Source: an uncultured Flavobacteriales bacterium
GTDB taxonomy: Bacteria > Bacteroidota > Bacteroidia > Flavobacteriales_D > Sanyastnellaceae
Direction: 5' to 3'
DNA: 64,000 nucleotides
NCBI GenBank assembly: GCA_938082505.1
Contig: CALLLH010000005.1
Coordinates: 62,001-126,000, forward strand
A program made the translations under genes and the position numbers. The notes under the pieces were generated by a model. The model worked only from the letters and a program-made list of their open reading frames with translations. It made no database searches and was not told where the DNA came from. Below are positions 10,939 to 59,798 of this stretch, piece after piece; position 1 is the first letter of the stretch, and every line of letters starts with the position of its first letter.

Positions 10939-12414
10939 CGGCACCGAAACGCGGAAGGTCGTACCCGTCCCTTCCTCGCTCTTGAGAATGAGGATCTGGC
11001 CCCCATGATAGTCGCGAACAATCCTGCGTACCAGACTCAGCCCCAGTCCCCAACCGCGCGCCTTGGTGCTGAAGCCCGGGTCAAAAACTTGACGCTGCAC
11101 CCGGCGCGACATGCCCTTTCCGGTGTCCTCCATGTCGAGAACGGCATGCCCGTTCTCGGAGAAGAGCGTCAAACTGAGGTGACCGACCCCCTCCATGGCA
11201 TCCACCGCATTCTTGGTGAGGTTCTCCAGGACCCAGCCGAACAGGGCAGGATTGAAGGCGGTGATCAATGGGGCCGACGGCATGTTCACCTCGAAATGCA
11301 CCCCCTTGGGCATCCTCGGCTGCAGATAGGACATCGCATCTCCGATGAAGGCCACCAAATCGTTGGGGGCCAGCTCCGGGTCAGAACCAATCTTGGAAAA
11401 CCGGTCCGTCACGGTCCGCAATCGTTCGAGGTCCTTCCCCAATTCCTTGAGCACGGATTCGTCTACCCCTTCGGTCCGCAACACCTCCACCCAGGCGAGC
11501 AAGGCAGACAGGGGTGTCCCCAGTTGATGGGCTGTCTCTTTGGCCATGCCCGCCCAAACCCGGTTCTGCTCCGAGCGACGCAATGCGCTGAAGGCAGAAT
11601 AGGCCAGCAGGAGAAAGCCCCCGATGATCAGCAGCTGGACCACGGGGAAAAGCCGCAGTTGCTTGAGCACGAGGGACTCATCATAGAGAATCCAACGGCG
11701 CTCGGTATCGGGCAAATCAAGGGCAATGGGCAGGTTCACTTCCGCCAATCGCCCAATGAGCGCCGCGGTGTCGATCAGGTCATGTTGCTCGAACCGGTCC
11801 GCCTTGATGATCCGATTCAGTGAAGAGTCCACCAACAAAACCGGAATGGAAGCCGAATTCAACACCGTCTCCGAAATGAACGAATGGATGATGTCATCCA
11901 TGACCGCCTGCAGGTCGCGAAAACGATTGCTCTGGTCATAATACAATGTCAGTCCCTGCTCGAAAGAAATCACCGAACCCCTTGATTCCATCGCATCGCG
12001 CAGCGAATCCAACTGGGCTGGAGAGCGCATCGCGGGGTCGACATTGATGTCCGCCTGCAGCAGGCTGTCCTTGTACACGAGAACGGGAATGGTGCGGTTC
12101 GTCTGAATGAAGTTCGTGACGAACGTGAGGTCGATGGGCGCCCCCGGGTTCGCACCTTGAATGATCCGGTAGGCCTTGCCGGTGAGATCGGCCTTCTCAC
12201 GCTCCTCCTCGCGCAGGGCACTGAACAGGTCCTCCGTATACCGCACAAGCTGCGCCCTCTGGACGATGGCCTCGGACCACAATTCCACCTTCCGCTGCTC
12301 CTCCTCGCGCAACGTGCGTGCAATGTTTCCACTGGACCATAAAGTCAGCGCCACGATGGTTGCGGCCCCGAACAAGAGGACAACCCGAGAATATTGCTTG
12401 CTGTTGATGCGCAC
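10915..12414 (-). CDS. Membrane sensor histidine kinase
   Basis: The 499-residue kinase has an N-terminal TM (VVLLFGAATIVALTLWSSG), a periplasmic sensor of about 220 residues, a second TM (LFPVVQLLIIGGFLLLAYSAF) and a cytosolic kinase core. The phosphoacceptor H-box is AKETAHQLGTPLSALLAW (His about residue 296), a variant with Q instead of the usual E after His, as is common in this Bacteroidota subgroup. The ATPase domain shows the N box (LTKNAVDAM), G1 (DTGKGM) and G2 (GWGLGLSLVRRIV). No response regulator gene adjoins it, so it is an orphan kinase with an unknown partner and signal. A short palindrome lies 14 bp before its start. Confidence 0.88.
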   Translation of the reverse strand: MRINSKQYSRVVLLFGAATIVALTLWSSGNIARTLREEEQRKVELWSEAIVQRAQLVRYTEDLFSALREEEREKADLTGKAYRIIQGANPGAPIDLTFVTNFIQTNRTIPVLVYKDSLLQADINVDPAMRSPAQLDSLRDAMESRGSVISFEQGLTLYYDQSNRFRDLQAVMDDIIHSFISETVLNSASIPVLLVDSSLNRIIKADRFEQHDLIDTAALIGRLAEVNLPIALDLPDTERRWILYDESLVLKQLRLFPVVQLLIIGGFLLLAYSAFSALRRSEQNRVWAGMAKETAHQLGTPLSALLAWVEVLRTEGVDESVLKELGKDLERLRTVTDRFSKIGSDPELAPNDLVAFIGDAMSYLQPRMPKGVHFEVNMPSAPLITAFNPALFGWVLENLTKNAVDAMEGVGHLSLTLFSENGHAVLDMEDTGKGMSRRVQRQVFDPGFSTKARGWGLGLSLVRRIVRDYHGGQILILKSEEGTGTTFRVSVPLVSEEVV

Positions 12415-47921: not shown

Positions 47922-48671
47922 TCAGAGCAGGTTGATCCTGCTGGCCAGCAAATCCTTGTAGCTGCCCCCGATGGGGATTTCCTTCTCCATGTCCCTTACC
48001 TGGATCATGGAGTACTTGATGCTGTGGATGGCATCGAGGTTCACGATGTAGCTGCGGTGAACCCGCATGAAACGGCGCTCATTCAGCTTATTCTCCACAT
48101 CCTTCATCGTGCTGTGGATGGTGTAGCTCTGCTCCGGAGTATGCACCACCACGTAATCCTTCAGGGCCTCAATGAACAAGAGGTCATTGTGGTCAATTTT
48201 CATCAGGCGACTGCGGTTCTTCACGAAGAGGTATTCCGCCGTCTCCTTGTGCTCGGCCATGTTCCTCAGGAACTCATTCTCCAGACGGGCCTCCTGCTCC
48301 TTGGAGAATTTATGGATGGCCATCTCGATACTCGTCTGAAGATCGACGTCCTTGAATGGCTTCAACACATATCCATGGGGCTCAGCCAGCTTGGCCTCTC
48401 CCAATGTGCTCCGATCCGCATACGCTGTCAAGAAAATGATGGGCACATCGAGCGTGCGCTTGATCTCCTCTGCCGCCGCTATGCCATTCATATCACCCTT
48501 CAGCATGATGTCCATGAGGATGACGTCAGGACGATGGCGAATCGCAAGCTCTATGGCGTCTTCACCGTTGTCTGCGGTGGCAACCACGTTGTAGCCGATT
48601 TTTTCGAGCGTCTGCTCAATGTCTTTGCGAACGATGCTCTCGTCCTCAGTGACCATAATGTTGATGGACAT
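47922..48671 (-). CDS. LytTR-family response regulator
   Basis: The 249-residue protein has an N-terminal receiver (acidic TEDE at 8-11, phosphoacceptor Asp54 in ILMDIML, Thr/Lys in LTAYAD and VLKPF). A helical linker of about 30 residues (KFSKEQEARLENEFLRNMAE) follows, then a C-terminal LytTR DNA-binding domain (FVKNRSRLMKIDHNDLLFIE; FMRVHRSYIVNLDAI). It binds direct-repeat DNA sites after phosphorylation. Its gene follows the PAS histidine kinase gene by 57 bp on the same strand, so that kinase is the likely partner. Confidence 0.92.
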   Translation of the reverse strand: MSINIMVTEDESIVRKDIEQTLEKIGYNVVATADNGEDAIELAIRHRPDVILMDIMLKGDMNGIAAAEEIKRTLDVPIIFLTAYADRSTLGEAKLAEPHGYVLKPFKDVDLQTSIEMAIHKFSKEQEARLENEFLRNMAEHKETAEYLFVKNRSRLMKIDHNDLLFIEALKDYVVVHTPEQSYTIHSTMKDVENKLNERRFMRVHRSYIVNLDAIHSIKYSMIQVRDMEKEIPIGGSYKDLLASRINLL

Positions 48672-48728
48672 TTCCTTTCAAATTTTCACCCGTAACCCTA
48701 ATCGAATTGTTCGATGGATGTCGGCCCA

Positions 48729-50954
48729 CTATCCGTCAAACAGGTTTTTCGGGCGCCGAAAGCTAATCAAAAACCGGGTTCCCTCGTCGGATTCCGCGGT
48801 CAATTCCGCATCCAACTGCTCACTCAGGGCCTGAACCAGATACAATCCCAATGAGTCCCGGGTGCTCCAATCAAACCCCTCAGGCAACCCTACTCCATTG
48901 TCCCTCACCTCTATCCGAATCTCCTCGGTGTCGTCGGAACCCTCGACATCAACCGCCTTCAATCGAACTGTGATCACGCCTTTTTCTCGTCCCTGAAATG
49001 CATATTTCATGGCATTTGACACCCATTCGTTCAAGATCAGGCCACATGGTATGGCCTGATCCAAAGGAGCTTCAATGTCCTCGAGTTCTGTGATCAGCTC
49101 CACCTCCGTGTTGCTCTGATATCCCTGGATGATGTTGCCCGCAATCCGCGTCATGTAACCCGGAAAACCAATGCGGGACACATCCGTGTTCTGGTACAGC
49201 GTCTCGTGAATGATGCTCATCGTGGACACCCGGTTCTGTATCTCCTCCAATCCGACGATGGTCTTCTCGTCGTGCACAAAGTTCTTCTGCAGATTCAGGA
49301 TGGAGTGGATGATCTGCAGGTTGTTCTTGACCCTGTGGTGCACTTCCTGCAACAGGATTTCCTTCTCCTTGAGCGCCCCCCGTATCCTCCTGTCAATCCG
49401 CTTCCGCTCGGTGATGTCGTATGCTATGGCACTGATTTCCCGCGCCCCATGCGGTGATTCAATGGGGTTCAAGAACAGCTGCAACCAGCGTCTTTCTGAG
49501 TCCGATTCATCATTGCCCACCGCCCACTCGAAACGTTGGGGCTTCCCATCCAGCGCGCGAACAAATCGGTCATTGACATCGAAGCCGTTCAATCCCCGCG
49601 TTTCGTTTACCAGCGTCCTCAGCGCCGCGGAGCTTTCCTCCACCGTCGCACCCTTCTTTTTCAGGTCCAACCAGGACTTGAAATTCATGTTGCTGCTCGT
49701 GACGGCGTGTCCCTCTGATTCCGTCCAGATGATGAAGTCCTCTCCTGATTCGACAATCGAACGCATGCGGGCAGTGGCATCCCTCAACGCGCTTTCTGCC
49801 GCAATCCGCTGCTCGATTTGCTGTGTCAGTTGCTGATTGGCTTCTTCTGCCAATTCTGCCCGGATCCGCTCCTGCATCAGGGTATACCGGTCCGTAACAT
49901 CAGAGAGGTTGACCTGGACCGCCGGTTGGCCATCGAAAATCGTCAGGCGCCATTTCAACATGAGTCGCCGACCGCCCGGATTCAATTCAAGCTCCCATTC
50001 CTCAACATTCCTGCCTTGTCGGGTCTGACGCGCACTGGTTGCCACACGCTCCTGGTGCTCCTTGATGAAAAGGGCGGCAAACCGCATGCCCTCCAGTTCA
50101 TCACCGATTCCTGAAAACAAGCTGTTCGCCACGGGGTTGGAGTAACGGATCAACTCGTCCACCAGGATCATGATGCCGTTGGGAGAGCTCTGGACCAGCA
50201 AACGAAACCGCTCGCGCTCCTGCACCAGGTCGAATTCAATCTTCTTCCTGTCCGACACATCATACATCATCCACACCTCAGAACCATCCTCCAGCCGACC
50301 CTTGCCGATGTCCAGGTGCAGTTCATCTCCATTTTTATTCGTCAGCATCCAATCCGCTCGGTCGAATACTCCGCTCCCGGCAATCGGCTCAAGGTTGCCC
50401 AGCCTTCTGAAGCCCAACTGACTGATGGCATCGCCCACCACTTGCTCAGGATGATCGACGCCCATCATGACCAAGAACCGGGAATTCACATCCAGAACGA
50501 TTTCATCCTGCACCAGAATGATGCCCTCCTGTGCAATGTCATTCAGCCTGCGATAGTGCGCTTCCCTGTCCTGCAGTGCCTGCTGCCTGAAACGCTGTTC
50601 GCTGATGTCCACCAATTGCAGCATGCCCTTTCCACCAGGTCCAGGAGAGAGGCGAATCTCACATTGGAACCGCTGACCTTCGCCGCGCTGGATCTCCAAT
50701 TCCATGCGGATCGGGGTACGCTCCGCTTCCGACAATTTGCGCCAGCGCGCATTGAAATACATCCGATCCTCCTCACGCCATAAGAAAGCCTGATGCTGCA
50801 ACCAATCAAACGGTTCAAACCCAACGCGAAGCCCCAACAAGAAGAGGCCCCTGGCATTCGCATGGGTCACCCGATCACCATCGAGCATCAGGAGCGCTGA
50901 CGGCAAGGAATCCATCCATTCCGATGGCCAATGTTCCTCCTTCTTGTCTGTCAT
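48729..50954 (-). CDS. Multi-PAS sensor histidine kinase of the HisKA_2 type
   Basis: The 741-residue kinase lacks a clear TM and is probably cytosolic. It contains about four PAS-type sensor modules (e.g. LNDIAQEGIILVQDEIVLDV; LLVQSSPNGIMILVDELIRY; RSIVESGEDFIIWTESEGH) with a PAC segment WLQLFLNPIESPHGAREISA and a coiled linker. The kinase core carries the HisKA_2 H-box LLQEVHHRVKNNLQIIHSIL and an ATPase domain (LILNEWVSNAMKYAF; VRDNGVGLPEGF; DSLGLYLVQAL). The ATG at 50954 overlaps the stop of the MORN gene (ATGA); an upstream in-frame start at 51047 would overlap more. Likely partner: the LytTR regulator downstream. Signal unknown. Confidence 0.9.
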   Translation of the reverse strand: MTDKKEEHWPSEWMDSLPSALLMLDGDRVTHANARGLFLLGLRVGFEPFDWLQHQAFLWREEDRMYFNARWRKLSEAERTPIRMELEIQRGEGQRFQCEIRLSPGPGGKGMLQLVDISEQRFRQQALQDREAHYRRLNDIAQEGIILVQDEIVLDVNSRFLVMMGVDHPEQVVGDAISQLGFRRLGNLEPIAGSGVFDRADWMLTNKNGDELHLDIGKGRLEDGSEVWMMYDVSDRKKIEFDLVQERERFRLLVQSSPNGIMILVDELIRYSNPVANSLFSGIGDELEGMRFAALFIKEHQERVATSARQTRQGRNVEEWELELNPGGRRLMLKWRLTIFDGQPAVQVNLSDVTDRYTLMQERIRAELAEEANQQLTQQIEQRIAAESALRDATARMRSIVESGEDFIIWTESEGHAVTSSNMNFKSWLDLKKKGATVEESSAALRTLVNETRGLNGFDVNDRFVRALDGKPQRFEWAVGNDESDSERRWLQLFLNPIESPHGAREISAIAYDITERKRIDRRIRGALKEKEILLQEVHHRVKNNLQIIHSILNLQKNFVHDEKTIVGLEEIQNRVSTMSIIHETLYQNTDVSRIGFPGYMTRIAGNIIQGYQSNTEVELITELEDIEAPLDQAIPCGLILNEWVSNAMKYAFQGREKGVITVRLKAVDVEGSDDTEEIRIEVRDNGVGLPEGFDWSTRDSLGLYLVQALSEQLDAELTAESDEGTRFLISFRRPKNLFDG

Positions 50955-52465
50955 CGATCCGTTTTGGAACCATTCACCTTGACAATGCGGCCCGCTCTGT
51001 ATTGTCGCACCAACCGCACGATACCTGAAGTATCGAAATAACGCCAATTGCCTTCAGGCAACCCACCCTCGTACCGTCCACTTGAAGCCCGTATTCCGGA
51101 AGGCCAATATGTCACATGTTCTCCCGTCGGAACACCGGAAACATATTCTCCCTCAAACCTCACTTGTCCATCGGGGCCATCATGACGCCAAACTCCATCC
51201 CGTTCCCCATCCAGATAAACACCGGACCTGCGGTCATCGTTCACATGTTCCACCCAAGGCCCTTGCTTCATGCCGCGTTCATATCTGCCAACCGCCAGGG
51301 TGTCGCCCTGTCTTGACAGCTCGACGAAATCTCCATCTTCCTTGCCTTTGCGGTATTGCTCATCCCGATGCAAAGCCCCGCCCTCATGATACCACTTCCA
51401 GCGGCCATGCCATGCATCCGCCCGGTATGCACCCTCCTGCTCAGTGGTGCCATCCACCCTCAAAAAAGTCCAGGGCCCATCCCGTTTTCCATCGAGGTAT
51501 CCGCCTTCGGCCTTCACCTCGCCCGATGGCCAGAACAGCTTCCATTCGCCTGACCGTCTGCCTAGACTATCCAAGGAACCCGATGCGTGAAGCATCCCTT
51601 CACGAAACACGCGAACCTCGACCAAGTGCCCCTTCTCATCAAAAAAACGATGGGTACCCATGGGCACATCCTCACGCCAAGGCCCGGATCTCGAAACCTG
51701 ACCGTTCGGATGAAAAGCCTTGCGTAAATCAAGCGCTACAGATTGCGGAGCATCCTTGACCTGCTCCCCCCGTTTCCAAGTCTCCGTTCGCTCCAAATCA
51801 CCGCTTCGGCTGAAAAACTTGAATACACCCTCTTTCAAACCGCGTTCGTAAGGCCCTTCAGATCGAACCCCTCCATTCGGCCAGAACGTCATCCATTTGC
51901 CGGTCTTCCGCTGTTGTGCATCGTAGCGATTGATGTCCTCCACCCAGCGCAACAGGTCATCGCGGTAGCCACTTCTCCGGATGATCCTTTCACTTCCCTC
52001 TTCATCCACCGCCAGATTGATGGCAATGCCTTCTTTTCGACCCGCCTTCCATGGAATCCTCGCGATCTCGCGGCCCAGTTCATCAAATTCCAACGCCCAA
52101 CCATCCATCGTGTCTCTTCTCCATGGAATGCTTCTGACCAAGGTTCCCAGCGTATCCCATTGTTGCTCCACTCCTTCCTTTCTGCCCTCGAGATAACCCA
52201 ACGTCGTCTCCACCCTGCCCTTTCGGTCATAGAACACCCACTCGCCATCCAAGTCCCCATCCCTCCAATTTCCCTCGCTCTTCCTGGTTCCATCCTCATG
52301 AAATGAGGTCCAGAACCCCGCCGGAACGCCTTCCACCAACCATCCCCTGCTGCTGATCGATCCATCCCCAAATCGGTATTCCACGGCTACGCTGTCTTGT
52401 CCAGCTCCCTCCAGCACAGCGCAAGAACAACCGATCAGCAAAACCATATTTTTCCAGGAACCCAT
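50951..52465 (-). CDS. Exported MORN-repeat protein
   Basis: The 504-residue protein has a short hydrophobic start (MVLLIGCSCAVLEGAG; lipobox-like LIGC, or signal peptidase I cleavage after GAGQ). More than a dozen tandem MORN_2-type repeats of about 23 residues follow, pattern G-x-W-x-x-G-x-x-x-G-x-W-x-x-Y/F, e.g. GEWVFYDRKGRVETTLGYLE and GEWKLFWPSGEVKAEGGYLD. The repeats build an extended beta sheet, often found in YwqK-type proteins; function unknown. The ATGA overlap with the PAS kinase gene points to co-expression and perhaps a shared pathway. I use the ATG at 52465; a start at 52501 would add 12 residues before the signal. It begins at the edge of the putative origin region. Confidence 0.8.
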   Translation of the reverse strand: MGSWKNMVLLIGCSCAVLEGAGQDSVAVEYRFGDGSISSRGWLVEGVPAGFWTSFHEDGTRKSEGNWRDGDLDGEWVFYDRKGRVETTLGYLEGRKEGVEQQWDTLGTLVRSIPWRRDTMDGWALEFDELGREIARIPWKAGRKEGIAINLAVDEEGSERIIRRSGYRDDLLRWVEDINRYDAQQRKTGKWMTFWPNGGVRSEGPYERGLKEGVFKFFSRSGDLERTETWKRGEQVKDAPQSVALDLRKAFHPNGQVSRSGPWREDVPMGTHRFFDEKGHLVEVRVFREGMLHASGSLDSLGRRSGEWKLFWPSGEVKAEGGYLDGKRDGPWTFLRVDGTTEQEGAYRADAWHGRWKWYHEGGALHRDEQYRKGKEDGDFVELSRQGDTLAVGRYERGMKQGPWVEHVNDDRRSGVYLDGERDGVWRHDGPDGQVRFEGEYVSGVPTGEHVTYWPSGIRASSGRYEGGLPEGNWRYFDTSGIVRLVRQYRAGRIVKVNGSKTDR

Positions 52466-52970
52466 CACCTCCGCAAGTTGGTCATCCCCCCTCAACTCCA
52501 CTTCTTCTGCTCCATGGTTTCTTTCCCCAACACACTATCTAATCTTTTATTCTTTAAAAGAAGTTTAGTGGTCATAGTAGGTCTGTTCATACTGATGAAA
52601 ACTCCTTCACCGCAAACTTGGAGCTGATGGAAATCCATGGTGTTTGGTCAGTTTTCACGCATTATTGACGAAGGCAGAATATTCAATATCAGTTGAATGA
52701 ATCAAGTTTTCACACAAAATCGTGAATTGGTGGTAACCGCCATTCTCAGCAACTGTCTTCGCTTCCCAGTGTGGATATGAGCGGCAACCATGTGGGGATG
52801 ATTGGGAGAAGTAGAGGTAAAACAGAGGGTGTTTTGCGTCACGATTGTGCAAGCCAGATTGGGCACGTAAAAACCAAATTTTCTTATGGAGAGTTTACAC
52901 ACATCAATTCGTGCGAATTCACATTTTCATGTGGACGAATCGTAATCGAGGAATACAGGAACTTCGGGGC
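52466..52970. other. Candidate chromosomal replication origin (oriC)
   Basis: This is the only gene-free stretch over 300 bp. It is AT-rich: rows 52501-52560 and 52681-52740 are each 35% GC, against nearly 50-60% in the flanks. Particularly AT-rich is 52,541-52,567, a candidate unwinding element. DnaA-box-like sites (consensus TGTGGATAA / TTATCCACA) are TGTGGATAT at 52,770-52,778 (8/9), TGTGGACGA at 52,930-52,938 (7/9) and TTACACACA at 52,895-52,903 (7/9). GTTTTCAC occurs twice (52,651 and 52,706). GC skew of the + strand changes sign here from C-rich to G-rich, as at origins, and mnmG with two parS-like sites is 5-7 kb away. No dnaA or dnaN gene is in the window; origin function is inference. 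Confidence 0.6.
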
Positions 52971-53399
52971 ATGAGGATTCACCTTGGAAACGACCACGCA
53001 GCTGGTCCTTTGAGAGCAGCGGTGATGGCCTGGTTGGCTGACCGGGGGCATGAAATCGTGGACCACGGAACCAACGGTGATGGCAGTGTGGATTACCCGG
53101 ATCACGTGCACCCTTTGGCCATGGGTGTAAAGGAGGACGCGGCCTTGGGTATCCTCATCTGCGGCTCTGCCAATGGGGTGGCCATGACGGCAAACAAGCA
53201 TGAGGGGGTGAGGGCGGCCATAGCGTGGAGGCCGGATATCGCGGCACTGGCGAGACAGCACAACAATGCCAATGTCCTGTGTCTTCCGGCCAGGTTCATT
53301 GCCATTCCCGATGCAATCGATTGCATCGACACATTCATTGAAACCGCTTTCGAAGGGGGTCGGCATGAGCGCCGGGTCGCCAAAATCACTTGCGCATGA
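52971..53399 (+). CDS. rpiB: Ribose-5-phosphate isomerase B (RpiB/LacAB family)
   Basis: The 142-residue enzyme interconverts ribose-5-phosphate and ribulose-5-phosphate in the pentose phosphate pathway. Family landmarks are NDHAAGPLRAAV near the N-terminus (phosphate site), DHGTNGDGSVDYPD, the active-site Cys in LICGSANGVAMTANKHEGVRA and HNNANVLCLPARFI. The first Asp pattern GNDHAG reads GNDHAA, a mild change. The start at 52971 is set by homology; the frame is open upstream through the putative origin. It overlaps the M28 gene (ATGA), so the two are coupled. Confidence 0.9.
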   Translation: MRIHLGNDHAAGPLRAAVMAWLADRGHEIVDHGTNGDGSVDYPDHVHPLAMGVKEDAALGILICGSANGVAMTANKHEGVRAAIAWRPDIAALARQHNNANVLCLPARFIAIPDAIDCIDTFIETAFEGGRHERRVAKITCA

Positions 53400-54982
53400 A
53401 ACACGCCATTCTTCCCTTTTCATTGGTCCTGTGTTGTCTCCTGCCGATTGCAGTGGCCGGCCAGGTCTTGCAACACATGGACGCAGCCGGAACCTGGGCC
53501 GAGACGATCACGCCTGAGGACCTGGCAACCCACCTTTACATCCTGGCGTCGGACTCCATGGAGGGCCGGGAAACAACCAAACCCGGTCAGCGCAAGGCAG
53601 CGGATTATATCGCGACACAATTCGAATCCATGGGCCTGGAACCCGTCAATGGAAGCTACTTCCAGGACGTGCCCATGCGGGTAAGCAAGTTGTTGGGTGG
53701 TGTGGTATCCGTGAGGGATGAAAAGCTCTTGTTCAAGGAAGATTTTGTGCCCTACCCAGGGATTGAGGTGAAGGACCTTACAGCCGAAGCGGTATTTGTG
53801 GGGTATGGAATCCAGGAGGGTGAGTGGGATGATTATGCCGGCCTCGATGTTCGGGGAAAGGTGGTGGTCATGATGTCAGGAGAGCCCGGGGACGAGAAAA
53901 ACGGCTTTGAATTGACGGCGGATGGGTCGCCTTCCCGGTGGAGCAAGGAGCGCAATGCGAAACGGGAACTGGCTGACAGCCTCGGCGCCGAGGGGGTGAT
54001 TGTGGTCACGCCGGATTTTGGCACGATGCGTTCACGCATGGTGCCGTGGTTGAGCCGGGAGCGGATGCGGTTGGATGTGGATCGGGAAGGCGAGGGCACA
54101 GATCTGCCGACGTTGTTGACCTCGGAAGAGGTGCTCCTGAGGATGACGGGGTGGAAGAGCATGAAGGATGTGCGGAAAAAATGGCCGAAGCGAAAACTCA
54201 AGGCCACGGACTTTGGGGTGATGGAAATGGGCTTGGCCCGAAAAGACGAGCGGATCATGGCCTCCAACGTCTGGGGCCTGCTTCCGGGTTCCGATTCCAC
54301 ATTGGCGGACGAAATTGTGGCCCTGACGAGTCACTACGATCATGTGGGCATCGATAAGGACGGGCTGATTTACAATGGAGCTGACGATGACGGCAGCGGA
54401 ACGGTGAGCCTGCTTGAAAACGCGGAAGCGTGGACCCTGGCCGCGAAGGCGGGCGACGGTCCCCGTCGAAGTGTTTTGTTCATGGCGTTCGTAGGCGAGG
54501 AAAAGGGCCTTCTGGGATCAGAATGGTACAGTGAAAACGCCGCTTTCCCACTGGAACAGCATGTCTGTGATCTCAACATGGACATGGTGGGCCGCGTCGA
54601 TGAGGCACATCCCGATGATGACCGCTACATCTATTTGATCGGCAGCGATAAACTGTCCAGCGAATTGCATGAAATCAGCGAGGCGGTGAATGAATCCCAC
54701 GTGGGTTTGGACCTGGACTACACCTTCAACGCGCCCGATGATCCCAACCGGTTCTATTACCGGAGTGACCACTACAACTTTGCGAAGCACGGCATCCCCG
54801 TCATCTTCTATTTCAGTGGGGTTCACGAGGATTACCACGGCCCCGGAGACACTCCGGACAAGATCCTCTATCCGAAGATGTCGGAAATCGGGAAGCTGGT
54901 CTTTCTGACCTCTTGGGAGGTGGCCAATCGGGACGCGAAACTTGAAGTGGACCGCGTCAACGACTTTCCGACGAACCGCTGA
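53396..54982 (+). CDS. Secreted M28-family zinc aminopeptidase with PA domain
   Basis: The 528-residue protein begins with a signal peptide (MKHAILPFSLVLCCLLPIAV with cleavage after VAG). An N-terminal part of the peptidase fold is followed by an inserted protease-associated domain (about residues 110-240) and then the zinc site. Ligands are His in SHYDHVGI, bridging Asp in NGADDDGSGT, catalytic Glu pair GEEKGLLGSEWY, Asp in NMDMVG and His in EDYHGPGDT. It should release N-terminal residues from peptides in the periplasm or outside. The ATG at 53396 overlaps the rpiB stop. The 3' end overlaps the convergent lipoprotein gene by 26 bp. Confidence 0.9.
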   Translation: MKHAILPFSLVLCCLLPIAVAGQVLQHMDAAGTWAETITPEDLATHLYILASDSMEGRETTKPGQRKAADYIATQFESMGLEPVNGSYFQDVPMRVSKLLGGVVSVRDEKLLFKEDFVPYPGIEVKDLTAEAVFVGYGIQEGEWDDYAGLDVRGKVVVMMSGEPGDEKNGFELTADGSPSRWSKERNAKRELADSLGAEGVIVVTPDFGTMRSRMVPWLSRERMRLDVDREGEGTDLPTLLTSEEVLLRMTGWKSMKDVRKKWPKRKLKATDFGVMEMGLARKDERIMASNVWGLLPGSDSTLADEIVALTSHYDHVGIDKDGLIYNGADDDGSGTVSLLENAEAWTLAAKAGDGPRRSVLFMAFVGEEKGLLGSEWYSENAAFPLEQHVCDLNMDMVGRVDEAHPDDDRYIYLIGSDKLSSELHEISEAVNESHVGLDLDYTFNAPDDPNRFYYRSDHYNFAKHGIPVIFYFSGVHEDYHGPGDTPDKILYPKMSEIGKLVFLTSWEVANRDAKLEVDRVNDFPTNR

Positions 54983-56192
54983 TGGCCTCGACGAAGGCGG
55001 CCTGCTCGAGTGTGTGCTTGACGCCGGTGGCCGGGCCGTTGAATCCCGAGTGAATCCAGGGCTCCTTGGCGTTCGGGCGCAAAACGAGGGTGGTGGGAAA
55101 ACTGACCACCCGGTCGAGGAAGGGCAGGGCTTTCTGAGCCTCTTGCTTTGATGCAGGACCGGCCAACGCAATGGACCAGCGCCCTTCATGGCGCCACATC
55201 TCCATGGACTCGCTGTACGCCTTCAGTCGGTTGAGTGCCCTTTTTTCGCCGGATTCGCGGTCAAGCCCGCGTTCAAACGCAAGGGTGTGCACGATGACGT
55301 GGGGGTGGGAATCCAGCAAGGAGGCCAACAACCGGTGCTCGTCCATGCAATTGGGACACCAGCTCCCCATGATGCTGAGGATGTGGACCGCAGTATCGGT
55401 AGGTTCCCAATTCCAAGAGACCGAGTCACCGACCAAATTCAAGCCCGAATAAGCGACGGGTTGTCCGGTCCATAGGGCTTTCATCCCGTCGTTCAGGGCG
55501 GGCGTTTCCTCCGTCATCGCAGATCCCACAAATGGTGTGCTGTAATGGTTGCCGCTGTAGAACCACCCCGCGGTCAACCCCCCATCGACAGATCGACGGG
55601 CTGAAAACAGAAAAAGGTGGGCCCCATCGAAGGTCTGCAGGGTGATGTTGCCGCCGTCTTCACTGCCGTGGAGGTAGCGAAAGTCGCCTGTGGCCGTCTC
55701 AATCGTCCCGGTCAGGCCCCCATCACGATCGGAACGCATAACCAGGTCTCCGAACCAGGGGTCTTCGTTTCCGAATGCGAGGCGCCAGACCTCCTCTTTG
55801 TGGGGGTGTGCCGGAGCGGCCTGCCCGCCCTCTCCCGCTCTCCAGGAAACATGGACTTCATAGGGGTCCTCCCCGGTGCGGAGGACATCGGTCCATTGGC
55901 CGTGACCCTCCCCGTTCAAACACACGGAGCCATCAAAGACGGGAACCGTGTAGCACCCGTCTTGTTGGGTGAGGTCAAGACGCTCTGCACCATTGAACAA
56001 TGCGAGGAATTCGGGCGTCTTGGAACCCGGAATCCGAACGTCCACACTGTCGGAGAGGTGGAACACCAAAACGCCATTGTTTCCCCCGTGAGCCGAGCTG
56101 TTTAGGGTTGCGCGGGACGTGTGTTCAACCGCTTCTTGACACCCCGTGCAGAGCAACAGCACGAAGAGCGCACCACGCCACAGGGGACCCAT
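54957..56192 (-). CDS. Lipoprotein with thioredoxin-like (TlpA/ResA) domain
   Basis: The 411-residue protein has a lipoprotein signal (ALFVLLLCTGC, Cys about 18). A beta-rich N-terminal domain of about 240 residues follows, and then a thioredoxin-fold domain with the redox motif GSWCPNCMDE (about residue 280) and the cis-Pro loop VSFPTTLVLRP. The N-terminal domain resembles the DUF4369-like or similar extension of Bacteroidota TlpA-type proteins, but I do not recognise it safely. It probably reduces or isomerises disulfides in the periplasm. Its start overlaps the ALDH stop (TGATG), so they are co-expressed. The 3' end overlaps the M28 gene by 26 bp. Confidence 0.8.
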   Translation of the reverse strand: MGPLWRGALFVLLLCTGCQEAVEHTSRATLNSSAHGGNNGVLVFHLSDSVDVRIPGSKTPEFLALFNGAERLDLTQQDGCYTVPVFDGSVCLNGEGHGQWTDVLRTGEDPYEVHVSWRAGEGGQAAPAHPHKEEVWRLAFGNEDPWFGDLVMRSDRDGGLTGTIETATGDFRYLHGSEDGGNITLQTFDGAHLFLFSARRSVDGGLTAGWFYSGNHYSTPFVGSAMTEETPALNDGMKALWTGQPVAYSGLNLVGDSVSWNWEPTDTAVHILSIMGSWCPNCMDEHRLLASLLDSHPHVIVHTLAFERGLDRESGEKRALNRLKAYSESMEMWRHEGRWSIALAGPASKQEAQKALPFLDRVVSFPTTLVLRPNAKEPWIHSGFNGPATGVKHTLEQAAFVEAISGSSESR

Positions 56193-57724
56193 CAGAATTC
56201 GAACTTGATGCCTTGGGCCAAGGGCAGTTCCGTGCTGTAATTGATCGTGTTTGTCTGGCGACGCATGTAGGCTTTCCAGGCATCACTGCCGGATTCGCGG
56301 CCGCCGCCGGTCTCTTTCTCACCGCCGAACGCCCCACCGATCTCTGCGCCGCTGGTTCCAATGTTCACGTTCGCGATGCCGCAATCGCTGCCGTTCGGAG
56401 AGAGGAAGCGCTCAGCACTGCGAAGGTTGCTGGTCATGATGGCGGAGGACAGGCCTTGCACAACCCCGTTCTGCATTGCAATGGCTTCGTCAAGTGTGTC
56501 GTAACGCATCACATACAGGATGGGCGCAAAGGTTTCGTGCTGAACGATTTCCATGTTGTTGTCGGCCTCCGCGATGGCGGGCTTGACATAACAGCCGGAT
56601 TCATATCCTGCACCGTCGAGCACACCGCCTTCGACGATGATCCGGCCCCCTTGATGGACCACCGCCTCCAGGGCGCTGTTGTATGCCGCAACTGCATCGG
56701 TGTCAATGAGGGGTCCGACGTGGTTGTTCTGGTCCAGGGGGTCACCGATGCGAAGCTGTCCGTAGGCGCTCTTGAGGGCATCCACCACCTTGTCGTAGAT
56801 GCTGCTGTGGATGATGAGTCGGCGGGTGGAAGTGCAGCGTTGTCCGCAGGTGCCCACAGCACCGAAAACGGTGCCGGGAACGACCATTTTGAGGTCGGCA
56901 TCAGGCTCGACGATGATGGCGTTGTTTCCTCCGAGTTCGAGCAGGCTCTTGCCCAAGCGGGCCGCCACGGCTTGGGCGACAATCTTGCCCATTCGGATGG
57001 AACCCGTAGCCGAAATGAGCGCAACACGCTTGTCTGATGTCATCATCTGGCCTACAGTGTAGTCGCCTTGAATGATGCAGGACAGCCCGTCGGGAACATG
57101 GTCCATATCAGCGGTCACCTCATTCCAGATGTTCTGACAGGCTACCGCGGTCATCGGCGTCTTTTCGGAAGGCTTCCAAATGCAGGCATTGCCACACACC
57201 CAGGCGAGGGCGGTATTCCAGTTCCAAACGGCAACCGGGAAATTGAATGCGCTGATGATGCCCACGACCCCCAGGGGGTGCCACTGCTCGTACATGCGGT
57301 GTCCGGGGCGCTCTGAATGCATCGTGAGGCCATACAGCTGTCTGGACAGACCGACGGCGAAGTCACAGATGTCAATCATCTCTTGCACTTCACCAAGGCC
57401 TTCCTGGAGGCTCTTTCCCATTTCATAGGAGACCAAGGCACCGAGGGCGTCTTTGTGTTTCCGCAGTGCTGCCCCATACAAGCGAACAACCTCTCCGCGT
57501 TGCGGTGCGGGAACGTTCCTCCAAGCCAGAGAGGCTTCGGTTGCAGCGGCGACCACTTTCTCGTAATCGGCAGCCGAACAAACACCGGTGCTTCCAATGG
57601 ACGCGCCGTCCACCGGACTGACGCTCGTGATGTTGGATCCGGTGCTGAGGTTGTGCGAACCTATCTGCGTGCCGGGGTTGATGGTGGTCAGTCCCAATTG
57701 GGAAAGATGGGCTTTCATGTCCAT
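56192..57724 (-). CDS. Aldehyde dehydrogenase, ALDH7 (antiquitin / alpha-aminoadipic semialdehyde) type
   Basis: The 510-residue NAD-dependent enzyme has the ALDH landmarks: [32 protein letters not shown], catalytic Glu in [10 protein letters not shown] and catalytic Cys (about residue 297) in [14 protein letters not shown], then the [20 protein letters not shown] motif near the end. The GGNNA and RCTSTRR combination marks the ALDH7A1 group, which oxidises alpha-aminoadipic semialdehyde in lysine breakdown; substrate assignment is by group only. Overlap with the thioredoxin-like gene (TGATG). Upstream 57,725-57,891 holds nothing I recognise before the parS-like site. Confidence 0.88.
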
Positions 57725-57891
57725 GGTGCTCGGTTTGTGGGTCGCGAAGTTACTCTTCCGCCTGTTGCGCGGTGGTTTTTGTTTAATGTGTTGGCAATCA
57801 GTGGTTTGTGTTTTGGGCTTTTCTCCGCGTTTGAGGGGGTTGGGTGCGGCGGCTGGAGAAAGCCCGTTTTTCGCGTCCCTATGGCTGTTTG

Positions 57892-57913
57892 GGATGTTCC
57901 ACGTGGAACATCC
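57892..57913. promoter_or_regulatory. parS-like ParB-binding palindrome, copy 1
   Basis: The 16-bp core TGTTCCACGTGGAACA (57,895-57,910) is a perfect palindrome that extends to 22 bp (GG and A outward on one side, CC and T on the other, 57,892-57,913). It differs from the general parS consensus TGTTTCACGTGAAACA at two symmetric positions, and the CC/GG version is known as parS in other bacteria. It ends exactly before the mnmG stop codon. Confidence 0.75.
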
Positions 57914-59776
57914 TCACCTACCGAGGTAGACCATCAGTACTGAGAGGTCTGATGCGGAAACACCACTGATCCGAGAGGCATCGCCCAGTGTTGGTGGTCG
58001 GTGCTCGTCAAGCTTCTGTCTGGCCTCCGTGCTCAGTGATGTGAGCCGCATGTATTCCAAATCGGGGGGGAGCTTGAGGTGTTCAAGGTCTTTCATGCGT
58101 TCTGCTTGGGCCTGTTCTTTTTCGATGTACCCCCTGTACTTCACCCCGGTTTCGATGTGGTCGATCCATTGGTCTGGAATCCCGGTAAACGCGGCCGTGA
58201 GCGCCTCTGATTGGGAAATGAGGGTTTTGAGTTTGAGTTGGGGCCTTGAGACCAGTTTGTCCCAGCGTGTCTTTTGTTGGATGCTGCTGCTTTCATGCGC
58301 CTCCAGTGTGGGGTTGACGTCTGATGGTTCTGCGCTGCTGTTGGAAAGCAGATCGCTCAGTTCATCAAGCCGGGCTTGTTTGTTTTCGAAAAGTGCCCAG
58401 TCTTGGTCGCATATGAGTCCTGTCTCTCTGCCCAGGGGGGTGAGTCGTTTGTCTGCGTTGTCTTGTCTGAGCAGGATCCTGTATTCAGCCCTGCTGGTGA
58501 ACATGCGGTAGGGTTCGTCCGTGCCTTTGGTGACGAGGTCGTTGATCAGCACTCCGATATAGGCCTGGTCTCGTCCGAGGATGAGCGGTGGTTGGTGTGT
58601 GCGGGAGCGGTGGCAGTTGATACCGGCCATGAGTCCTTGGCACGCGGCTTCCTCGTATCCTGTTGTTCCGTTGATTTGCCCTGCGAAGTACAGGCCGGGT
58701 AGGGCTTTCGTTTGGAGAGTGTGGTCCAGTTGCGTTGGAGGGAAGTAATCGTATTCAACGGCGTAACCGGGCCTGAACATCCGGGCGTTTTCTAGGCCTG
58801 GAATCTGGCGCATGGCTTCTAGCTGGACTTCTTTGGGTAGGGATGTGGAGAATCCGTTGATGTAGGTTTCTATGGTGTTGCGCCCTTCGGGTTCTATGAA
58901 GATCTGGTGTCTGTCCTTGTCTGCGAACCGGTGGATCTTGTCTTCTATGCTCGGGCAGTACCGGGGCCCTTTCCCTTGAATGGCCCCCGAAAACATGGGG
59001 CTACGGTCGAGTGCTGATGCCAGTATCTCGTGCACTGCTGGGTTTGTGAAGGTGATGTGGCAGGGCAGTTGGGGTGCTATGGACAGGCGCTCGAAGTAGC
59101 TGAATGCTTCTGCTGTTTCTTCTCCTGGTTGTGGCTCGGTTTTGTCGTAGTCTATGCTGCGGCCGTCTACCCTGGGTGGGGTCCCGGTTTTCATCCGTCC
59201 GGTTTGGAGGCCGTGGCTGCTGAGTTGGCCTGTGATCCCTTCCGCTGCCCGTTCCCCTGATCTTCCGCCGGAGAATTCTTGGGTTCCCAGGTGAATGCGG
59301 CCTTGAAGGAACGTTCCCGAGGTCAGGATGGTGTTGGGTGCTTTGATGGTGAGTCCCAGTTGGGTGTTGACGCCCAGGACCCGCCCGTCTTTGATGAGCA
59401 GGCTGGTGACCATGTCCTGCCACAGGTGGATGTTCTCTTGTGCTTCCAGTTGTTGGCGCCAGGCCCATGCAAATGTGTGCCGGTCGTTCTGGGTTCTGGG
59501 GGACCACATGGCAGGGCCCTTGCTCTTGTTGAGCATGCGGAATTGGATGGCGCTGCGGTCGGATATCCGTCCGCTCATGCCGCCCAGTGCATCGATTTCG
59601 CGGAGAATTTGGCCTTTGGCCACGCCGCCCATGGCGGGGTTGCAGCTCATGGCACCGAGTGTCCCCAGGTTCATGCTGATCAGGAGAACGCGTTCTCCGA
59701 GGGTGGCTGCGGCATGGGCTGCTTCGTTGCCGGCGTGACCTCCGCCGACTACGATGACGTCATATTCTTGAAGCAT
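57914..59776 (-). CDS. mnmG: tRNA uridine-5-carboxymethylaminomethyl modification enzyme MnmG (GidA)
   Basis: The 620-residue FAD enzyme, together with MnmE, modifies U34 of tRNAs reading split codon boxes. The N-terminal FAD motif is [17 protein letters not shown], followed by [23 protein letters not shown]; downstream are [40 protein letters not shown] and the C-terminal [10 protein letters not shown] and [17 protein letters not shown] segments. All are family hallmarks. In many bacteria this gene adjoins the origin. Its two ends abut parS-like palindromes (57,892 and 59,783). ybeY is 27 bp upstream. Confidence 0.97.
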
Positions 59777-59782
59777 GGTCTG

Positions 59783-59798
59783 TGTTCCACGTGGAACA
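59783..59798. promoter_or_regulatory. parS-like ParB-binding palindrome, copy 2
   Basis: A second perfect copy of TGTTCCACGTGGAACA lies in the 27-bp gap between the ybeY stop (59,804) and the mnmG start (59,776). The 16-bp core is identical to copy 1; the flanks differ. Two identical 16-mers 1.87 kb apart are very unlikely by chance. Confidence 0.78.

Follow-up and report, generated by a model that had tools for sequence, protein, structure and literature searches.

The intergenic gap at 52466-52970 beside rpiB is very probably the chromosomal replication origin (oriC) of this genome, a function that we infer from sequence. Its location away from dnaA, as proposed by the first-pass annotation, is supported by six lines of evidence, namely the contig-wide skew minimum, an unwinding module at that minimum, the conservation of this module, nearby parS sites, the agreement of a complete relative, and a dnaA contig without a skew switch. 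The window analyzed here is a 64-kb stretch comprising bases 62001-126000 of contig C5 (257,471 bp), which belongs to a draft genome of 60 contigs and 2.45 Mb. Features are collected in Table 1.

Strand composition around the gap

GC skew in this genome was computed on all of C5 and on the contig carrying dnaA (C9). Along the whole of C5, cumulative G-C fell to a single minimum at window position 52552 and then rose, and the 64-kb window taken by itself gave the same position, in line with the switch near 52.5 kb seen in the first-pass annotation, whose four row counts (G15/C21, G7/C22, G23/C14 and G29/C10) were exact on recount. All 10-kb bins to the left of the switch were negative (-0.047 to -0.155, 114 kb) and all full bins to its right were positive (+0.002 to +0.056, 143 kb), with bin 48001-58000 being the only one to span the switch. 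Fourfold-degenerate sites were counted per gene strand to part gene orientation from replication. At these sites, the skew of + genes changed from -0.29 on the left to -0.07 on the right, and that of - genes from 0.00 to +0.23. Since the shift of about +0.23 is common to both gene strands, the switch is positional and not a gene-orientation effect, so that the earlier statement that the sign of the skew follows position rather than gene strand was borne out. A strand-independent C-to-G switch, as expected of an oriC, is thus present on the 257-kb contig, and the complete relative agrees.

Gene orientation does add to the skew, with a difference of about 0.29 between + and - genes at fourfold sites both left and right of the switch, and the gap holds the start of rpiB and presumably its promoter. 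We nevertheless consider it extremely improbable that gene orientation or the breakpoint of a recent inversion produced the switch and that the gap holds no more than a common AT-rich promoter: the shift is equal on both gene strands and sustained over the distances given above, the placement of module and parS is conserved in dozens of genomes, and the skew fit of the complete relative (G012) points to an origin at the corresponding place.

The gap is AT-rich, as annotated before (56.8% AT vs 42.0% for the window), and its AT content ranks in the top 0.2% of 505-bp windows across the 64 kb. The 60-mers at about 52532-52601 are among the most AT-rich of the window and provide a putative AT-rich unwinding region within an intergenic gap, as expected of an oriC. 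An Rfam search of the gap found no RNA family. The gap had been described as the only long one; it is indeed the longest, but not the sole long one, as a simple ORF pass left about 442 bp at 11824-12265 without any ATG-started ORF of at least 80 aa. That stretch has an ordinary AT content (43%).

Table 1. Features of the proposed origin region and of the dnaA contig (window positions, unless genome and contig are named).
Feature	Position	Strand	Remarks
MORN_2-repeat gene	50951..52465	-	divergent from rpiB, other side of gap; Pfam PF07661, E 4.1e-25
Putative oriC-bearing intergenic gap, 505 bp	52466..52970	.	between MORN_2 gene (-) and rpiB (+); longest gap of window
Putative core unwinding module (BUS-like), 57 bp as scored	52547..52603	+	sits on skew minimum; matrix 48.8 bits; profile E 4.9e-13
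Imperfect dyad TTCTTTAAAAGAA	52550..52562	+	box-distal module end; part of putative AT-rich unwinding stretch
DnaA-trio tract TAG TGG TCA TAG TAG	52566..52580	+	imperfect; two clean proximal units
Trio-proximal degenerate DnaA box GTATGAACA, 6/9	52584..52592	-	family + strand consensus TGTTGATAC; TGT invariant in 26 family sequences
Second, abutting degenerate DnaA box TTTTCATCA, 6/9	52593..52601	-	family + strand consensus close to TGTGGATAA (column frequencies +9 to +17)
DnaA box match ATATCCACA, 8/9	52770..52778	-	mismatch count
Weak DnaA-box match TCATCCCCA, 7/9	52793..52801	-	mismatch count
Weak DnaA-box match TTACACACA, 7/9	52895..52903	+	mismatch count
Weak DnaA-box match TCGTCCACA, 7/9	52930..52938	-	mismatch count
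rpiB (LacAB_rpiB)	52971..53399	+	conserved neighbor of module; Pfam PF02502, E 3e-48; linkage in 48 genomes
parS site 1, TGTTCCACGTGGAACA	57895..57910	.	just past mnmG 3' end
mnmG/gidA	57914..59776	-	between the two parS sites; Pfam GIDA, E 2.7e-157
parS site 2, TGTTCCACGTGGAACA	59783..59798	.	just ahead of mnmG start
dnaA (L001)	G000:C9:5741-6226		contig other than that of oriC
parB (L275)	G000:C9:15261-15539		ParB_N match, E 6.8e-35

A conserved module on the skew minimum

The block on the skew minimum (52547-52603) reads TTATTCTTTAAAAGAAGTTTAGTGGTCATAGTAGGTCTGTTCATACTGATGAAAACT on the + strand, and the same place in relative L004 reads TTCTTAAGAAAAGAAGTAGTAGATGTAGTAGGCCTGTTGATAGGTCTGATAACT. 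A scoring matrix derived solely from other genera (18 sequences) singled out this site, the runner-up among 654,098 positions of C5 and C9 reaching 16.1 bits. For searches across genomes, a strict pattern (TAGTAGGNCTGTTNATA), which matched only three genomes, was replaced by a profile (R1). The profile had a single match in this genome and matches in 49 of 61 family genomes. In 48 of these 49, the best match was on the strand of rpiB and preceded that gene by 321-523 bp; half of the rpiB-linked genomes (24/48) were absent from the training of the profile. The exception, G027, showed a weak match (L265, G027:C291:654-722) 4.8 kb upstream of rpiB, possibly because of an insertion between module and rpiB or a moved rpiB.

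A search of 199 genomes of the order revealed eight profile matches outside the family. Five of them, from two other families, were located upstream of rpiB, and in every case the skew was lower to the left than to the right; the other three (L262-L264) were partial, had no rpiB nearby and were discarded as false positives. Among 80 named rpiB loci across Bacteroidota, clear matches were confined to L033, L034 (both in the model) and L077; L105 gave a weaker match at a contig end (E 2e-4), and none of the remaining loci matched convincingly. The closest named relatives, L034 (the MAG Crocinitomicaceae bacterium TMED114) and L033 (Flavobacteriales MOX_bin5), place the genome in the Flavobacteriales. 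As only four of the 80 named loci matched, the rpiB linkage is limited to part of the Flavobacteriales, and we make no claim for Flavobacterium or Cytophagales. Matches to TAGTAG upstream of rpiB in other Bacteroidota looked unrelated.

The family profile runs from a T-rich and an A/G-rich part through in-phase TAG units and TAGG to the abutting TGTTgATac and tGtGgAtAA. Conservation in the dyad region (25-26 family sequences) likewise passes from T-rich to A/G-rich. The proximal TAG is nearly invariant in the family, and over the 12 bases beyond it the TAG phase amounted to 0.503, compared with 0.310 in 5000 shuffles (sd 0.027, maximum 0.423). In B. subtilis, the basal unwinding system (BUS) of oriC consists of DnaA boxes 6/7 and DnaA-trios (PMC8287927, PMC6669920); the boxes are followed by 3'-GAT-5' trios, and the box-proximal trio is most often GAT (PMC8287927). 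The BUS order of a DnaA box, most often a tandem, closely followed by trinucleotides was also found here, as two abutting boxes, a 3-bp spacer and TAG TAG; on the - strand, the module reads box, box, GAC, and then CTA CTA. Outward from the boxes, the trio tract is 3'-GAT-GAT-ACT-GGT-GAT-5'. A central A occurs in five of the first eight trio units of this genome, with only two consecutive units beside the boxes, while the published search rule calls for at least three 3'-NAN-5' trios next to the box (PMC8287927). Two features of this genome count against the assignment: its tract, read away from the boxes as TAG TAG TCA TGG TAG, is imperfect, and its tandem boxes match at 6/9 each. Because its own boxes are degenerate and its tract is interrupted, it is the family, rather than this single sequence, that carries the assignment as BUS.

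The best-conserved core lies about 170-340 bp to the left of the DnaA boxes found by mismatch counting. Such matches had been noted in the gap before, and they are present (one 8/9 and three 7/9), but their number is within chance for the gap alone, which makes them weak by themselves. With at most one mismatch to TTATCCACA, one site was seen in the gap vs 0.15 expected (P 0.13), and with two mismatches four vs 1.9 (P 0.12); TTWTNCACA with one mismatch gave P 0.024. As they are not significant, single-gap box counts were not used as evidence on their own. When the 26 homologous gaps were pooled, 25 sites were found for TTATCCACA vs 4.0 in shuffles (maximum 9), and 123 vs 48 for TTWTNCACA. Box-like sites are thus enriched across the gaps of relatives; the first-pass annotation had named a lack of conservation of such sites in relatives as a reason to abandon its origin call. 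At the position corresponding to 52930-52938, G041, G059 and L033 carry TCATCCACA (8/9; alignment A1). Just before rpiB, the same alignment shows strong conservation of the block GTGCGAATTCACATTTTNATGTGGATGA (52910-52939) among some members of the genus; this block could represent a box pair, part of a promoter, or both.

Given an oriC in this gap, unwinding might also begin at 52661-52720 or 52868-52927, where further AT-rich 60-mers are located, with the block at 52547-52603 serving another role such as regulator binding; the conservation of GTGCGAATTCACATTTTNATGTGGATGA in part of the genus speaks for this option as well. We regard it as unlikely, since only the module is conserved family-wide with the trio phase and a fixed geometry, and since the skew minimum falls on it.

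parS sites, dnaA and a complete relative

Exactly two TGTTNCACGTGNAACA sites exist in the whole genome. Both read TGTTCCACGTGGAACA and lie 5.3 and 7.2 kb from the module, while the reversed control pattern of parS had zero matches in this genome. In the 29 family genomes with both elements on one contig, parS was found 2.8-15.6 kb from the module (or rpiB). A pair of parS sites about 1.9 kb apart was also observed in G016, G034 and G026. ParABS bacteria as a rule have parS close to oriC (PMC7022226), and here two exact sites near the module go together with a ParB gene in the genome. As in other ParABS systems, the sites are of consensus type and clustered within 8 kb of the origin (B. subtilis consensus TGTTNCACGTGAAACA; PMC7022226). 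In contrast to these, parB is not beside parS and oriC but near dnaA, and it is distant from the origin in complete relatives.

On C9, dnaA and parB are about 9.5 kb apart, and a spacing of 9-14 kb is shared by this genome, G041, G012 and G043. The two genes lie on a contig other than that of oriC and parS or, in the near-complete relatives, at a great distance from both. The skew of C9 was negative or near zero throughout, without any C-to-G switch, and the matrix scan of this contig returned no module.

The complete relative G012 (4.10 Mb) was sampled over about a fifth of its length for a two-switch skew fit, which placed the origin at 3.64-3.65 Mb and the terminus at 2.06-2.21 Mb. The fit was confined to G012, as the values for G043, a genome in two contigs, were noisy. 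Its module is located at 3.633 Mb and its sole parS at 3.639 Mb, 5.9 kb from the module. The local skew minimum, at 3.647 Mb, is 14 kb from the module, which counts against the assignment. As dnaA (1.98 Mb) and parB (1.97 Mb) lie close to the fitted terminus, the two genes together are near the terminus in this genome, dnaA being 1.65 Mb from the origin. The first-pass annotation had named a skew minimum elsewhere as a reason to abandon its origin call; such a minimum was found neither on C5 nor in G012.

Origins linked to dnaA are the textbook case, and accessory DnaA-binding sites occur in other bacteria. The true origin could accordingly lie elsewhere, for example beside dnaA, in which case the present locus would only bind DnaA for regulation or serve parS-based segregation near mnmG. 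We judge this very unlikely, as the dnaA contig has neither a C-to-G switch nor the module, dnaA of G012 is remote from the skew-fit origin, and origins distant from dnaA are described as common in Bacteroidetes (PMC4755523).

Relation to known origins and significance

By analogy with the BUS model of B. subtilis and with ParABS, replication from the gap beside rpiB can be pictured as follows. DnaA made at its distant locus would bind boxes in the gap and load onto the two abutting degenerate boxes (52584-52601). The filament would extend over the GTC spacer onto the + strand TAG (3'-GAT-5') trinucleotides at 52566-52580 and melt the AT-rich DNA on its left side (about 52532-52565). Helicase would then be loaded and two forks would leave, after which ParB bound at the pair of parS sites 5-7 kb further right would move the copied origins apart.

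The putative unwinding module shares with the B. subtilis BUS the tandem boxes, a short G/C-containing spacer, 3'-GAT-5' trinucleotides of which the proximal one is best conserved, and AT-rich DNA. It differs in that the trios are interrupted and the boxes degenerate, in that a conserved TTCTTT-AAAAGAA dyad follows the trios, and in that dnaA is not adjacent. A survey of DnaA-trios tested six further species biochemically, with no Bacteroidota among them (PMC8287927). Origins far from dnaA have been described as common in Bacteroidetes, with a predicted origin in Prevotella intermedia (PMC4755523), and in Mariniflexile litorale (Flavobacteriaceae) oriC was predicted beside mnmG (PMC11278836), although a figure legend in that report swaps the ori and ter labels, which renders the case uncertain. 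The proposed origin beside rpiB is thus a further case of a known type. It resembles those of P. intermedia and M. litorale in being placed at a skew switch far from dnaA, and the text on M. litorale puts the origin next to mnmG, a gene 5 kb off in our window. It differs from both in having rpiB as the immediate neighbor and a module aligned across many genomes. Our literature search, which had partial coverage, found no report of rpiB beside a replication origin. Possible novelty lies in the module shared across the lineage, with its TTCTTT-AAAAGAA dyad, and in the separation of oriC and parS from dnaA and parB.

As a speculative proposal, to which we give a rather low probability, the cis sites (oriC, parS) and the genes of the proteins acting there (dnaA, parB) would form two far-apart clusters in this Flavobacteriales lineage; in G012, the only complete genome that was fitted, these genes lie near the terminus. 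Under the same proposal, the TTCTTT-AAAAGAA dyad may be more than passive AT-rich DNA and act as an origin element particular to the lineage, at which, for example, a helicase-loading factor could land in a strand-specific manner. A DciA gene is present in the genome. Additional elements of this kind exist, as shown in B. subtilis by the DnaD recognition element, which occupies the strand opposite to that of the trios (PMC10201434) and of which the dyad might be an analogue.

The module provides a testable origin for an uncultured lineage, with a position good to tens of bases, and an origin element that can be aligned across at least three Flavobacteriales families. In combination, module, rpiB, parS and mnmG represent a usable marker for setting the chromosome start. 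The same marker serves growth-rate estimates from metagenome read depth, for which a start placed at dnaA would be badly wrong.
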